Source: Flavivirga sp. 57AJ16 (lineage in GTDB: Bacteria > Bacteroidota > Bacteroidia > Flavobacteriales > Flavobacteriaceae). Taken from it: DNA of 64,000 nt. Below the pieces are notes generated by a model. It did no database searches, was not told where the DNA came from, and worked only from the letters and a program-made list of their open reading frames with translations. The stretch covers positions 62,001-126,000 of the forward strand of contig NZ_JAQZAT010000002.1 in NCBI RefSeq assembly GCF_028736925.1. Direction: 5' to 3'. The position numbers and the translations under genes were made by a program. This document shows, one piece after another, positions 457 to 26,485 of the stretch (position 1 is its first letter; each line of letters opens with the position of its first letter).

Positions 457-486
457 TTTTGGAAGATTATTGTTTTCGGTATACGT

Positions 487-514
487 GTGGATTCCTGCCT
501 CCGCAGGAATGACA
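487..514. repeat. Palindromic repeat, leftmost copy bordering the GIY-YIG array
   Basis: This 28-bp sequence begins GTGGATTCCTGCCTCCGCAG and ends AATGACA. It contains an internal palindrome, ATTCCTGC and GCAGGAAT around a short centre. It is the exact reverse complement of the copies at 597-624 and 1100-1127. Confidence 0.85.
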
Positions 515-596
515 AGTTTTAGCAATAAGGAATAATGACACAATAACACTGTTTAATATTTAACCTTCTTTTTACGAAGCTCAAAATTTTGAGTTT

Positions 597-624
597 TGTC
601 ATTCCTGCGGAGGCAGGAATCCAC
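597..624. repeat. Palindromic inverted repeat upstream of GIY-YIG copy 1
   Basis: This 28-bp repeat begins TGTCATTCCTGCGGAGGCAG and pairs as a perfect inverted repeat with 990-1017, so the nuclease gene at 643-954 sits between two facing copies. Read through in frame it would encode VIPAEAGIH, a peptide typical of non-coding repeats mistaken for protein. For that reason I do not start the gene upstream of 643. Confidence 0.85.
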
Positions 625-642
625 TGGTTTAATAAATATTTT

Positions 643-954
643 ATGTATAAAACAATTCACCAATACTACCTTTACATTTTAACAAATAAAACTTGTGGGA
701 CTTTGTATATCGGGGTAACAAATGATTTGGAACGCCGTATGTTTGAACACAAAAATAAATTGGTCAAGGGCTTTACACAGAAATATGGCTTATACAAATT
801 GTTGTATTTTGAAACTTATCAATATGTTGATGATGCTATTAAAAGGGAAAAGAACATGAAGAAATGGAAGCGTCAATGGAAAATAGATTTAATAGAAAAA
901 GAGAATCCAAATTGGAAAGACCTGTCTAAGGATCGGACTTATTTGATTGAATGA
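643..954 (+). CDS. GIY-YIG nuclease family protein, intact copy 1
   Basis: A 103-residue single-domain protein of the short GIY-YIG group (UPF0213/YhbQ-like). It shows the GIY half-motif as YLYIL near residue 10, the YIG half-motif as LYIGVTNDLERR near residues 23-34 with the conserved Arg, and the downstream Glu in AIKREKNMKKW. All core catalytic positions are therefore present. The start at 643 (MYKTIHQ) is chosen because the longer frame back to 589 would use TTG and translate the palindromic repeat. It is the only intact gene of three tandem copies. Inverted repeats at 597-624 and 990-1017 flank it. The family nicks or cleaves DNA, but the cellular role of these short bacterial members is mostly unknown. 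Confidence 0.85.
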   Translation: MYKTIHQYYLYILTNKTCGTLYIGVTNDLERRMFEHKNKLVKGFTQKYGLYKLLYFETYQYVDDAIKREKNMKKWKRQWKIDLIEKENPNWKDLSKDRTYLIE

Positions 955-989
955 CAAATAAAGGAAATATTATTGTTTTCGGTATACGA

Positions 990-1017
990 GTGGATTCCTG
1001 CCTCCGCAGGAATGACA
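990..1017. repeat. Palindromic inverted repeat downstream of GIY-YIG copy 1
   Basis: A perfect reverse complement of the 28-bp repeat at 597-624. It closes the 421-bp unit formed by repeat, nuclease gene and repeat. Confidence 0.85.
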
Positions 1018-1099
1018 AGTTTTAGCAATAAGGAATAATGACACAATAACACTGTTTAATATTTAACCTTCTTTTTACGAAGCTCAAAATTTTGAGTTT

Positions 1100-1127
1100 T
1101 GTCATTCCTGCGGAGGCAGGAATCCAC
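1100..1127. repeat. Palindromic inverted repeat upstream of GIY-YIG copy 2
   Basis: Identical to 597-624, 503 bp further on. An 82-bp spacer conserved between units (1018-1099) separates it from the previous repeat. That spacer contains the 14-bp palindrome CTCAAAATTTTGAG. Confidence 0.85.
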
Positions 1128-1145
1128 TGGTTTAATAAATATTTT

Positions 1146-1457
1146 ATGTATAAAACAATTCACCAATACTACCTTTACATTTTAACAAATAAAACTTGTG
1201 GGACTTTGTATATCGGGGTAACAAATGATTTGGAACGCCGTATGTTTGAACACAAAAATAAATTGGTCAAGGGCTTTACACAGAAATATGGCTTATACAA
1301 ATTGTTGTATTTTGAAACTTATTAATATGTTGATGATGCTATTAAAAGGGAAAAGAACATGAAGAAATGGAAACGTCAATGGAAAATAGATTTAATAGAA
1401 AAGGACAATCCAAATTGGAAAGATCTGTCTAAGGATTGGACTTATTTGATTGAATGA
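1146..1457 (+). pseudogene. GIY-YIG nuclease copy 2, nonsense-truncated
   Basis: Near-identical to copy 1 over its whole length, but the Gln codon CAA after FETY has become TAA at 1323-1325. Translation would stop after about 59 residues and lose the REKNMKKW segment with the conserved Glu. The downstream codons remain recognisable in frame to the original TGA at 1455-1457, with a few substitutions such as Glu to Asp in the KENPN region. The truncation looks recent and the product should be inactive. It belongs to the tandem array with period 503-508 bp. Confidence 0.85.
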
Positions 1458-1492
1458 CAAATAAAGGAAATATTAATGTTTTTGGTATGCGA

Positions 1493-1520
1493 GTGGATTC
1501 CTGCTTCCGCAGGAATGACA
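1493..1520. repeat. Palindromic inverted repeat downstream of GIY-YIG copy 2
   Basis: The same 28-bp repeat as 990-1017 with one change, CCTCCG to CTTCCG. The palindrome still folds. Its 3' flank also carries a short insertion (AAGTGTTGTTTTGGC against AAGTTTTAGC), shared with the copy at 2001-2028. Confidence 0.8.
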
Positions 1521-1607
1521 AGTGTTGTTTTGGCAATAAGGAATAATAACACAATAACACTGTTTAATCTTTAACCTTCTTTTTACGAAGCTCAAAATTT
1601 TGAGTTT

Positions 1608-1635
1608 TGTCATTCCTGCGGAGGCAGGAATCCAC
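1608..1635. repeat. Palindromic inverted repeat upstream of GIY-YIG copy 3
   Basis: Identical to 597-624 and 1100-1127. The spacing to copy 2 is 508 bp rather than 503 because of the small insertion in the spacer. Confidence 0.85.
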
Positions 1636-1653
1636 TGGTTTAATAAATATTTT

Positions 1654-1965
1654 ATGTATAAGACAATTCACCAATACTTCCTTTACATTTTAACAAATAA
1701 AACTTGTGGGACTTTGTACATCGGGGTAACAAATGATTTGGAACGCCGTATGTTTGAACACAAAAATAAATTGGTCAAGGGCTTTACACAGAAATATGGC
1801 TTATACAAATTGTTGTATTTTGAAACTTATCAATATGTTGATGATGCTATTAAAAGGGAAAAGAACATGAAGAAATGGAAGCGTCAATGGAAAATAGATT
1901 TAATAGAAAAAGAGAATCCAAATTAGAAAGACCTGTCTAAGGATTGGACTTATTTGATTGAATGA
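1654..1965 (+). pseudogene. GIY-YIG nuclease copy 3, C-terminally truncated by a nonsense codon
   Basis: Near-identical to copy 1, with Tyr to Phe in the GIY strand (YFLYIL). The Trp codon TGG of PNWKD has become TAG at 1924-1926, which removes the last 13 residues. All catalytic motifs, including the conserved Glu, lie before the stop, so unlike copy 2 this product of about 90 residues might still fold. The original stop frame is preserved to 1963-1965. I call it a pseudogene with less certainty than copy 2. Confidence 0.7.
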
Positions 1966-2000
1966 AAAATAAAGGAAATATTAATGTTTTTGGTATGCGA

Positions 2001-2028
2001 GTGGATTCCTGCTTCCGCAGGAATGACA
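2001..2028. repeat. Palindromic inverted repeat closing the GIY-YIG array
   Basis: Matches 1493-1520, including the CTTCCG variant. The homologous spacer continues to about 2060 and then breaks off before the cob operon, which marks the right edge of the array. Confidence 0.8.
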
Positions 2029-2112
2029 AGTGTTGTTTTAGCAATAAGGAATAATAACAAAATAACTTTAAAGCAAATCATATCAGCAAATAAAATATAA
2101 CTTATACCTGAT

Positions 2113-2682
2113 TCAGGCTCGTTCAATTTCAGAAAGAAGCTCCCAGGATGTCCCTGCTTTTTTAAGATGAAAAATAGCACCGTATTGAATTTTAATGCTA
2201 AATGATTTTTCTAAAGGCACGTCTAAAATAGACGAAAGAAAAGCTCTTATTGGACCGGCATGGGTTACAATTATTAGATTTTGTTCATTATGTGAATTTA
2301 TGATTTCTTCAAAAAAAGCAGTTACCCTGGACGCCAGTTCAATATAGGACTCGCCATTGGGCACTCTAACATTAACAAAGTCTTTCATCCATGGACTTAA
2401 TGTTTCTTCAGGGATCATATGCCATGGTTTCATTTCCCAGTCTCCAAAATCAAGTTCTTTTAAACGGTCGTCAAAAGAAACATCAGATCCTATATAATCT
2501 GCAAATAATGCACATCGTTTTAATGGACTACTCTTTATACGATATGCTTTATTGCTAGGGATTTGTTGTTTGATCTTTTTAAATTCTTCGAGATAGGTAT
2601 CTGTTAAGTTCAAATTGGTTTGTCCATAGCAAATTCCTTTTTCAATGCCGGGAGTTGTGTGTCTAATTATATAAATTTCCAT
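2113..2682 (-). CDS. cobC: Alpha-ribazole phosphatase / histidine phosphatase family
   Basis: A 189-residue histidine phosphatase. The catalytic RHT motif is at residues 6-8 (MEIYIIRHTTPG), the second half carries THAGPIRA with the other conserved His, and LKELDFGDWE contains the acidic residue. CobC-type enzymes remove phosphate from alpha-ribazole 5'-phosphate or from adenosylcobalamin 5'-phosphate, the last step of nucleotide loop assembly. The start at 2682 gives the canonical N-terminus; a longer frame to 2766 would run deep into cobS and add an unrelated leader. It overlaps the end of cobS by 16 bp, which supports translational coupling in a cobU-cobT-cobS-cobC operon transcribed leftward. 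Phosphoglycerate-mutase-like members have other substrates, but the operon makes the B12 role likely. Confidence 0.88.
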   Translation of the reverse strand: MEIYIIRHTTPGIEKGICYGQTNLNLTDTYLEEFKKIKQQIPSNKAYRIKSSPLKRCALFADYIGSDVSFDDRLKELDFGDWEMKPWHMIPEETLSPWMKDFVNVRVPNGESYIELASRVTAFFEEIINSHNEQNLIIVTHAGPIRAFLSSILDVPLEKSFSIKIQYGAIFHLKKAGTSWELLSEIERA

Positions 2683-3428
2683 AAAGCTATAACGCTTAAA
2701 TAAAATACAACCTCGCATAATTGTTGAACAGCCCCGGCACAATCGCCTGTTTGTCCTCCTAACCATTTTTTAAATTTAGTACCTAGATAGACTTTTGCTA
2801 AATAACATGGAATAATGCTTATAAACATTAAAGGTTTATTAAAAAATAGTATGGGAGCTATTCCAAAAACAGCACTAATAAGAAGCATGCCTGTGGTTAT
2901 GCTTTTGGCCGCTGGTTTAGCTTTACTGTCTTTGGTATCTCGAACATAAGGGTGTGTGTAAATTAATGTGGTCGCTATAAATCTACTTAGGCTGTGACCT
3001 ACAATGATCGTTATTGGAATAAAGGGAAGCGGCATGTCTCTTAATGCAAAAAACTTAACGGTAAGTATTAAAATCAAGCCTATGACACCGTAGGTACCTA
3101 AGCGGGAATCCTTCATGATAAGAAGGATTTTTTCTTTAGTCCATCCACCTCCAAACCCATCGCAAACATCTGCGAAACCATCTTCATGAAATGCGCCTGT
3201 TGTGTATATGCTTGCTACCATACTTAATAAAAGTGCTATTTCGGTAGAAAGAATAAAAGAAAAACCATAAAATACTGCAGCACTTACACCACCAACAATA
3301 ATACCAACTAACGAAAAGTATTTAGCACTTTTTGAAAGGTATTCGGGGTTATGGTCTACCCATTTGGGACAAGGGATTCTTGTGAAAAACAGGATGGCCG
3401 TTAAGAAAATTTGGAGTTCTTTTCGCAT
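2667..3428 (-). CDS. cobS: Adenosylcobinamide-GDP ribazoletransferase
   Basis: A 253-residue integral membrane protein that joins adenosylcobinamide-GDP to alpha-ribazole (or its phosphate), producing cobalamin. The early segment FTRIPCPKW and the acidic motif GAFHEDGFADVCDGFGGGW around residues 80-100 are hallmarks of CobS and provide metal-binding aspartates. Several hydrophobic segments follow (for example ILILTVKFFAL and SRFIATTLIYTHPYVRD). Length is normal for the family. The gene lies 2 bp after cobT and overlaps cobC, as expected for one transcript. It acts in the inner membrane. Confidence 0.95.
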   Translation of the reverse strand: MRKELQIFLTAILFFTRIPCPKWVDHNPEYLSKSAKYFSLVGIIVGGVSAAVFYGFSFILSTEIALLLSMVASIYTTGAFHEDGFADVCDGFGGGWTKEKILLIMKDSRLGTYGVIGLILILTVKFFALRDMPLPFIPITIIVGHSLSRFIATTLIYTHPYVRDTKDSKAKPAAKSITTGMLLISAVFGIAPILFFNKPLMFISIIPCYLAKVYLGTKFKKWLGGQTGDCAGAVQQLCEVVFYLSVIALWKFI

Positions 3429-3430
3429 TT

Positions 3431-4477
3431 CTAAATAGTTTTGGTTTCCTCGCTTACCCCAGCAGTATCAAAACTTGCCATGTTATTTAAAAAATTCACT
3501 GATGCTTGTACTAGCGGTATTGCTAATGCAGCTCCCGTACCTTCGCCTAACCTTAATCCTAAGGACAGTAGTGGTTTTGCTTTTAGAAACCCTAACATTT
3601 TTATGTGTCCCTTTTCATTTGAATTATGGGCAAATACACAATAATCCAAAACGTTTCTGTTTATTGCCTGTGCAGCCAAAAGGGCAGCAGTTACTATAAA
3701 ACCATCTATAATTATGATCATTTTTAATTCTGCTGCTTTTAAAATAGCACCACAGAGCATGGCTATTTCAAAACCGCCAAAAATAGACATGGCTTCTAAT
3801 GCATTTTTAGGATGGTATTTTTTAAAAACCTCAGATAAGATTTGTTGTTTCTTACGGATCCCTTCTTTATTTAGCCCTGTACCGGCACCTACACATTCAG
3901 AAATTGGTATTTCTGTAAAATAGGCCATAAGTAGAGCTGCCGACGAGGTGTTACCAATCCCCATTTCACCAAAACCAATAGTATTTGTGCCTTCATTTTT
4001 AAGTTTAGAAATAATGTCGCCACTTTTTTTAAAAGCCTTTTCACACTGTGTTAATGTCATGGCCGGTGCTTCCTGATAATTGTTCGTGCCAAAATCAATT
4101 TTAGCATTAATAATATCAAGTGCTTCAGGAAACGTATGGTTCACTCCAGCGTCAACTATTTTTAAGTTTAGCTTGTTGGTGTTGCTAAAAATATTTATGG
4201 CAGCGCCACCATTCACAAAATTATAAACCATTTGAGCCGTTACTTCTTGTGGAAAGGGATTCACTTCCCCTTTAGTCGCAATGCCATGATCGCCTGCAAA
4301 TACAACAATAGAGGGGCTTGATATTTTTGGATTTAAAGTATTTTGGATGCAGCCAATTTTAGTGGCTAAATGTTCCAGAATACCTAAAGCGCCCATAGGT
4401 TTTGTTTTAAGGTCAATTTTCTTTTGAAGTTCCAGTTTTAATTCAGAATTGTTTATAGGTACTGTGGTATGTGTCAT
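3431..4477 (-). CDS. cobT: Nicotinate-nucleotide-dimethylbenzimidazole phosphoribosyltransferase
   Basis: A 348-residue cytosolic enzyme that transfers the phosphoribosyl group of nicotinate mononucleotide to the lower-ligand base, giving alpha-ribazole phosphate for CobS. The sequence shows KPMGALGILE near residue 27, FAGDHGIATKGEVNPFPQEV near residues 60-80 and GEMGIGNTSSAA near residue 170. The C-terminal SLGLRLGEGTGAALA segment carries the catalytic Glu. Length is typical. Its start codon overlaps the cobU stop by one base, and cobS follows after 2 bp, so the operon is tightly coupled. The window shows no lower-ligand synthesis gene, so the base may be salvaged. Confidence 0.96.
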   Translation of the reverse strand: MTHTTVPINNSELKLELQKKIDLKTKPMGALGILEHLATKIGCIQNTLNPKISSPSIVVFAGDHGIATKGEVNPFPQEVTAQMVYNFVNGGAAINIFSNTNKLNLKIVDAGVNHTFPEALDIINAKIDFGTNNYQEAPAMTLTQCEKAFKKSGDIISKLKNEGTNTIGFGEMGIGNTSSAALLMAYFTEIPISECVGAGTGLNKEGIRKKQQILSEVFKKYHPKNALEAMSIFGGFEIAMLCGAILKAAELKMIIIIDGFIVTAALLAAQAINRNVLDYCVFAHNSNEKGHIKMLGFLKAKPLLSLGLRLGEGTGAALAIPLVQASVNFLNNMASFDTAGVSEETKTI

Positions 4478-26280: not shown

Positions 26281-26307
26281 AAGAGAGCATCTTTTTAAAT
26301 TTTGACT

Positions 26308-26332
26308 TGTCATTCCTGCGAAGGCAGGAATC
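26308..26332. repeat. Solo copy of the GIY-YIG-associated palindromic repeat
   Basis: TGTCATTCCTGCGAAGGCAG followed by GAATC: the same repeat as 597-624 with one base changed in the loop, no nuclease gene nearby. The rest of the gap 26120-26485 holds the helicase promoter and no gene. Confidence 0.75.
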
Positions 26333-26485
26333 TCGTAAATGGAAGTTCTAATGATGATTTTATGTACTTGAATAATACTCTTGTGCTATTGTGTTTATCG
26401 CATGGGTGAGCCGCAATATAGAGATAAATAAAATCAGATTTTAAAGCAAGGGTTCTTTAGGCAAACCGATAGCACATTACTAAGT

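Follow-up and report, generated by a model that had tools for sequence, protein, structure and literature searches.

A GIY-YIG nuclease gene between facing CGTC-type hairpins, a probable mobile REP/RAYT-like element recurring in many genera

The feature at 463-2066 of the window (the whole 64,000-nucleotide stretch of Flavivirga DNA analyzed here) probably belongs to the CGTC-type REP superfamily as an autonomous mobile element that resembles REP/RAYT systems, has a GIY-YIG nuclease as its enzyme, and forms here a tandem array of three units. The combination of this hairpin and a GIY-YIG gene is a recurring unit in many genera. The gene is a candidate for the missing enzyme of the CGTC repeats, and would answer the question with which PMC3733652 (2013) ended, namely which enzyme, if any, moves them. 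Because the candidate shows class-specific pairing with its hairpins across phyla, a single purified protein of 103 residues and an oligonucleotide of 30 nt would be enough to test it. If the reading is true, REP-type selfish repeats would have arisen convergently, with two or more unrelated enzymes, and natural enzyme-hairpin pairs would provide ready data on the choice of single-stranded targets by small nucleases.

The array, its protein and its hairpins

The array is preceded by a gene matching Diphthami_syn_2 (1-456) and followed by genes matching His_Phos_1 (2113-2676), CobS (2667-3428), and DBI_PRT (3431-4477), all according to Pfam. The first-pass annotation had described three tandem units at 503-508 bp, and the spacings are indeed 503 and 508 bp; each unit consists of a hairpin, a 103-codon GIY-YIG nuclease gene, and a facing hairpin. 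The total number of hairpins is seven, since the tail of a further truncated unit sits at 463-515, and copy 1 is the sole intact gene, since copies 2 and 3 are interrupted by TAA at codon 60 and TAG at codon 91, respectively. The features are the following.

463..515, minus strand: tail of the truncated leftmost unit, with minus-oriented hairpin 1 (487-515)
516..595, no strand: inter-unit spacer (repeat families D1 and D4), recurring at 1019-1098, 1522-1606, and partly at 2030-2066
596..625, plus strand: hairpin 2, left end of unit 1; tag TGTC, stem ATTCCTGC/GCAGGAAT, loop GGAG, tail CCA
643..954, plus strand: GIY-YIG nuclease gene copy 1, 103 codons, intact (PF01541, E 6.5e-16; structure model with mean pLDDT 88.5)
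989..1018, minus strand: hairpin 3, right end of unit 1 (repeat match and DNA fold)
1099..1128, plus strand: hairpin 4, left end of unit 2
1146..1457, plus strand: GIY-YIG gene copy 2, with the stop TAA at 1323-1325
1492..1521, minus strand: hairpin 5, right end of unit 2, one loop base different
1607..1636, plus strand: hairpin 6, left end of unit 3
1654..1965, plus strand: GIY-YIG gene copy 3, with the stop TAG at 1924-1926
2000..2029, minus strand: hairpin 7, right end of unit 3
26307..26336, plus strand: solo hairpin of the same class as those of the array; in 11 congeners the orthologous place has it mutated or shifted, or it was not found there

The facing repeats had been reported as perfect over 28 bp. 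This is true of copy 1 (597-624/990-1017), where the match in fact covers 30 nt (596-625/989-1018), whereas in copies 2 and 3 the right-hand hairpin is off by one loop base. Their palindromic nature was also recognized correctly, as each arm forms a hairpin (-7.7 kcal/mol in single-stranded DNA folding, with z of -3.7 and -4.6 for the two arms of copy 1), and the solo palindrome noted at 26308 is present, but with the loop GAAG and the tail TCT instead of TCC.

In addition to its PF01541 domain, the copy 1 protein retains the conserved Tyr, Arg, and Glu of the GIY-YIG superfamily, which we take to be the catalytic residues; the invariant positions are Y22, G24, R32, H36, E69, and N88. A comparison with 10 relatives gave dN of 0.02-0.13 versus dS of 1.3 to saturated, which we count in favor of the mobile-element reading. 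The nearest solved sequences are the UPF0213 proteins (1zg2, 1ywl), which have the domain in common with it, 1zg2 being 26% identical in the Foldseek alignment. There are 21 PF01541 matches in the window's genome (G000, 52 contigs), and of 199 genomes of the family, which represent 198 genera, 89 have homologues of copy 1 at E <= 1e-15. Arrays of GIY-YIG genes also occur elsewhere (G019:C20, G200:C1, G271:C86 with 420/418 bp, and G087:C1). Several homologues lie a few hundred bases from contig ends (G292:C66/C60/C27, G453:C38, G298:C21, G038:C40, and G194:C32), as if similar copies were breaking the assemblies.

With up to two mismatches, GTCATTCCTGCNNNNGCAGGAATCC has 46 matches in the window's genome, the seven of the array included, while a reversed control pattern has none there. 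The CGTC REPs of PMC3733652, as described in its consulted part, have a CGTC or TGTC tag, a stem of 8-9 bp starting with AT, a loop of 4-5, and a CCA-like tail. The window hairpins have this form (TGTC-ATTCCTGC-GGAG-GCAGGAAT-CCA, with an 8-bp stem and a 4-nt loop), and they are likewise dispersed and multicopy and, as far as the individually inspected copies tell, mostly extragenic. The hairpins of other phyla include the form GTCATTCCCGCG..GCGGGAATCC.

Some class-A hairpins (the classes are defined below) carry inserts in their loops, namely at the G203 C1 site (L190, 2167), at site 1 of G203 (L188), in the G207 unit (L195, 1881-1928), and in G202 (L180); in G203 and G207 the insert is a class-B-like CTGAAC..TTCAG palindrome, a hairpin nested inside a hairpin loop. 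At four other loci (L161, L164, L165, L169), GIY-YIG homologues stand beside repeats of other types, e.g. GTCATTCTGAACGAAG.., that fall outside our strict hairpin definition.

Pairing of genes with hairpins

A hairpin was defined as TCA plus seven further stem bases, a loop of 3-9, at least 7 of 8 pairs, and then C, within 150 bp of the gene. The family set was drawn from the loci of the window's genome, 30 further loci and 59 stretches among the matches listed, nearly all taken by score order; it held 112 unique gene copies, of which two were left out for short flanks and 110 were counted. ORFs of at least 120 aa from the same loci served as controls. Facing hairpins on both sides were found for 31 of 110 gene copies versus none of 130 control ORFs (Fisher 2e-12). 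Plus-oriented hairpins upstream and minus-oriented hairpins downstream accompany 43 and 46 of the 110 genes, respectively, while the opposite orientations occur upstream in 4, downstream in 13, and on both sides in 2. By score, facing pairs were found at 11 of 22 genes with at least 130 bits, 9 of 41 with 90-130, 11 of 39 with 70-90, and none of 8 below 70.

A profile scan of named genomes, of which the best 80 of at least 558 confirmed places were used, gave a similar picture. When these 80 loci were divided by record title, facing pairs flanked 24 of 40 flavobacterial genes versus 1 of 91 control ORFs (Fisher 1e-14) and 21 of 40 other genes versus 1 of 93 (Fisher 2e-12). The record titles of the latter name Omnitrophota, Leptospiraceae, Treponema, Deltaproteobacteria, Nitrospira, Chloroflexota, Polaromonas, Ignavibacteriaceae, and several Patescibacteria, although single assignments may be wrong because many named records are metagenome bins. 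Pairs that face each other outnumber those that face away by 31 to 2 in the family set and by 45 to 2 among the best 80 named loci. The strict definition gives no facing pair for 79 of 110 family genes and 35 of 80 named genes. Palindromes no more frequent near GIY-YIG genes than near other genes would have contradicted the first-pass reading, and the counts went the other way (31/110 versus 0/130, and 45/80 versus 2/184).

These counts also bear on the idea that ordinary small genes have the hairpins as terminators or mRNA-end structures, which would fit the position of the hairpins at gene ends. We find it hardly credible: control ORFs have facing pairs in only 0/130, 1/91, and 1/93 cases, the upstream hairpin is left unexplained, and in the site-1 sequences inspected the hairpins have T runs before them and A runs after them, which is the wrong order for a terminator.

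For A, B, D, and E of the hairpin classes, which were defined after inspection of the hairpins (A, GTCATTCCTGC..GCAGGAATCC; B, GTCATCCTGAACTTGATTCAGGATCC; C, GTCATTCCGCACTTGATGCGGAATCC; D, TTCATTTCCGCGAAGGCGGAAATCT; E, GTCACTGCGCACTTGTTGCGCAGTCG), the class follows the protein clade. Class D hairpins open with TTCA rather than GTCA and therefore fall outside the CGTC tag. Of the 110 copies, four were too short for the tree, 50 of the remaining 106 had no class label, and copies 2 and 3 of the window were dropped, leaving 54 proteins. On this tree, which is built from a short alignment and has many unresolved forks, the six class labels require 13 changes versus a shuffled mean of 31.6, and none of 200 shuffles was as low. 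Classes A, B, D, and E cluster on it; class C does not track it (7 changes versus a shuffled mean of 7.7, as low in 157 of 500 shuffles), nor do the mixed X hairpins.

The distribution over the 199 genomes shows the same preference. Class-A hairpins are present in 54 of 89 gene-positive versus 22 of 110 gene-negative genomes, and class-B hairpins in 43 of 89 versus 10 of 110. In the 11 genomes that carry the window's clade, class A has 3-53 copies (excess p 2e-6, copies beside the gene counted in) and class B is not in excess (p 0.15). Away from the gene, class D occurs in 8 of 9 D-clade versus 21 of 190 other genomes. The outer three stem positions of class B, in a test anchored on the tag, inner stem, and loop only, are paired in 70, 71, and 66 of 71 hairpins with six different fully paired combinations, so that pairing rather than one sequence appears to be kept, some of the loci having been retrieved with the class-B pattern, which favors its own stem. 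Class A is uninformative in this respect because it is nearly invariant (ATT/AAT in 92 of 99).

Alternatively, a RAYT, an insertion sequence, or replication slippage between inverted repeats may spread the hairpins, with the nuclease gene as their cargo. This would agree with the 35 of 89 gene-positive genomes that have no class-A hairpins and with the 22 gene-negative genomes that do, including G096 with 13 hairpins and G131 with 23 (in the latter, weaker GIY-YIG homologues were found by profile). The consulted part of PMC3733652 likewise has the CGTC REPs apparently without a dedicated transposase and leaves mobilization by others open. Class-specific pairing of gene and hairpin over clades and phyla is not expected of cargo, and we regard this explanation as improbable.

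Units that come and go

At the same places in 12 congeners, the window's genome included, units, solo hairpins, and empty sites alternate. For the window's own site (site 1), both flanks provide anchors in G000, G202, G206, G200, G203, and G019, and the right-hand genes alone do so in the other six, the left flank being conserved in 6 of 12. Units are present there in G000 (three), G202, G206 (inverted, with two more hairpins), and G201 (right anchor only). The symmetric solo hairpin TTTGTCATTCC..GGAATGACAAA, which is equivalent to a unit's two outer halves, was found in G200, G203 (with an insert in the loop), and G205 (right anchor only), and at most one ruined hairpin in G207. Neither unit nor hairpin was found at this site in G019 or, by the right anchor only, in G199, G204, and G208.

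Site 2 has units in G207, G200, and G019, with 1096-1305 bp between the anchors, and none in G204, G202, G201, and G208 (16-36 bp), G000 (66), G205 (82), G203 (116), G199 (132), and G206 (344). Site 3, compared in the ten genomes other than G019 and G204, which could not be anchored, has a unit in G203 (869 bp) versus 71-77 bp in G199, G201, G205, and G200; its flanks are 42-51 bp apart in G202, G206, G207, and G208, and G000 has a solo hairpin. A check for presence/absence polymorphism had been proposed with the first-pass annotation, and units are indeed present or absent as units. On the congener tree, the presence of a unit requires two changes at site 2 and four at site 1, where four species bear a unit and gain is indistinguishable from loss. 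No target-site duplication is readable at the join, where the flanks of filled and empty sites are too diverged. The solo hairpin at 26308, intact in G000, carries mutations in G019 and G208 and has been shifted or ruined in G206 and G207; in the remaining seven congeners it was not found.

When units at unrelated loci are compared, their homology stops in most cases at the outer edges of the hairpins. The G203 unit (hairpin outer edges 1658 and 2081) has 11 near-full matches in other genomes; 8 of them start at 1657-1659, one at 1640, and two, both copies of the G000 array, at 1501, while 9 end at 2080-2085 and two earlier. The hairpin edge is not always the limit of homology, since these two array copies share about 150 bp beyond it with G203. 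For the G207 unit (left edge 1502), whose right hairpin is interrupted by an insert, all eight matches at other loci begin at 1501-1502. Within genomes, seven pairs exceed 80% identity, and five of them overrun or fall short of the hairpin edge on at least one side. G292 has three copies on different contigs, 83-92% alike; the homology of L351/L353 and L352/L353 extends 39 bp upstream and 40-46 bp downstream of the gene and so stops at the hairpin edges or close to them, whereas in the third G292 pair and in the pairs of G279, G386, and G397 it extends past them. The G282 pair ends at the upstream hairpin edge and stops downstream at the gene.

Some of the hairpin pairs without a gene are units with an internal deletion. 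When six such pairs of G000 were aligned to the unit, those on C2 and C34 and one of the two on C10 matched both unit ends but lacked the middle of the gene; in the second C10 pair and two of the C45 array, one unit end matched over about 90-100 bp, whereas the match to the opposite end was weak or confined to the hairpin and its immediate surroundings. Four shorter pairs in G000 look REPIN-like, their starts lying about 46-54 bp from each other. The C45 array itself (G000:C45:117176-118585, L055) is gene-less and has a 303-bp period with 3.0 copies and 95% matches. A separate repeat of about 197 bp (L190, 106-303) has ten near-full copies with 86-95% identity elsewhere in G203, further partial copies there, and weaker ones in congeners.

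We propose that the GIY-YIG enzyme would recognize its own hairpin class as folded single-stranded DNA (tag plus stem-loop) and nick at or beside it. Such recognition and cutting are inferred from the association, the class specificity, the presence/absence of units, and what is reported of the Neisseria nuclease Ssn. Repair of a nick or break at the cognate hairpin, or of one arising during replication or DNA uptake, could copy the unit or the hairpin pair; gene-less pairs and solo hairpins would be served in trans and would decay when not renewed. GIY-YIG enzymes hydrolyze DNA, and we know of none with strand-transfer activity; among modes of spread a homing-like copying step is for this reason the most likely, and we put it forward tentatively.

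The nuclease may instead serve its host, cutting incoming single-stranded DNA at the repeats and tuning natural transformation, with the hairpins kept as its sites and moving with recombination, as is said of Ssn. The GIY-YIG fold and the invariant residues listed above speak for such a role, as do the form GTCATTCCCGCG..GCGGGAATCC among the hairpins of other phyla and the equation, in the consulted part of PMC3733652, of the CGTC-1 repeats of Neisseriae with dRS3. Units that come and go, tandem arrays, deleted derivatives, and the decay of a solo hairpin between congeners are more the behavior of mobile DNA than of a maintained host locus. We consider the host-serving role unlikely as the whole explanation, and it is compatible with a mobile element.

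A broader proposal, for which we see about even chances, is that small GIY-YIG nucleases are dedicated CGTC-REP enzymes and constitute a second, independently evolved kind of REPtron in many phyla; unlike with RAYTs, complete units would travel in a homing-like manner into hairpins in either orientation, leaving deleted and solo derivatives, and the enzyme-to-hairpin code would be readable from natural pairs.

Comparison with known systems

Classical insertion sequences or MITE pairs depend on a DDE or HuH transposase, whereas the long ORF of the intact unit encodes a GIY-YIG protein; a transposase inside the unit was excluded, as about 420 bp are too short for an ORF of that size. Free-standing homing endonucleases of the I-TevI type have a DNA-binding extension for which the 103 residues leave no space and, unlike them, the enzyme proposed here would target a multicopy hairpin.

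Ssn of Neisseria (2025) is reportedly a GIY-YIG single-strand nuclease that cuts single-stranded DNA at a repeat of this kind, and is said to have been presented as a transformation modulator, not as a unit-mobile element. By this account, both systems combine a small stand-alone GIY-YIG protein with a multicopy repeat, and differ in that we read the window system as unit-mobile. The statement of the first-pass annotation that it was not aware of a tested case was therefore probably wrong, and the recognition of a repeat by such a nuclease is probably not new; the mobility of units and the link to CGTC REPs may be.

Among the open-licence PMC papers listed, titles and abstract openings gave no link of GIY-YIG genes with REP, CGTC, or dRS3 repeats. 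PMC10928387 and PMC4642659 contain both the word GIY-YIG and a word beginning with RAYT, and the consulted part of PMC1564403 has no mention of flanking repeats.

The CGTC-REP superfamily, including dRS3 of Neisseria, is a close match for the hairpins, going by the consulted part of PMC3733652: the TGTC/CGTC tag, the 8-bp stem beginning with AT, the 4- or 5-nt loop, the CCA tail, and the occurrence of solo and paired copies are shared. That part reports no associated enzyme gene, whereas here a GIY-YIG gene lies between the repeats.

As for anatomy, the likeness to REP/RAYT systems drawn in the first-pass annotation holds well. In the TnpAREP REPtrons and REPINs of PMC8266576 and PMC6006769 (consulted parts), each enzyme has its own REP; the enzyme gene is flanked by inverted copies of its own hairpin type, pairs and solo copies are dispersed, and enzyme and hairpin co-vary, as do clade and class here. 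The enzyme is HuH-Y1 in REPtrons and, by Pfam, GIY-YIG here, and the tag is GTAG in the former and TGTC in the window. The likeness understates mobility: for tnpAREP the consulted part of PMC8266576 gives no evidence of it, whereas the GIY-YIG units differ between congeners in their presence and often occur in several copies.
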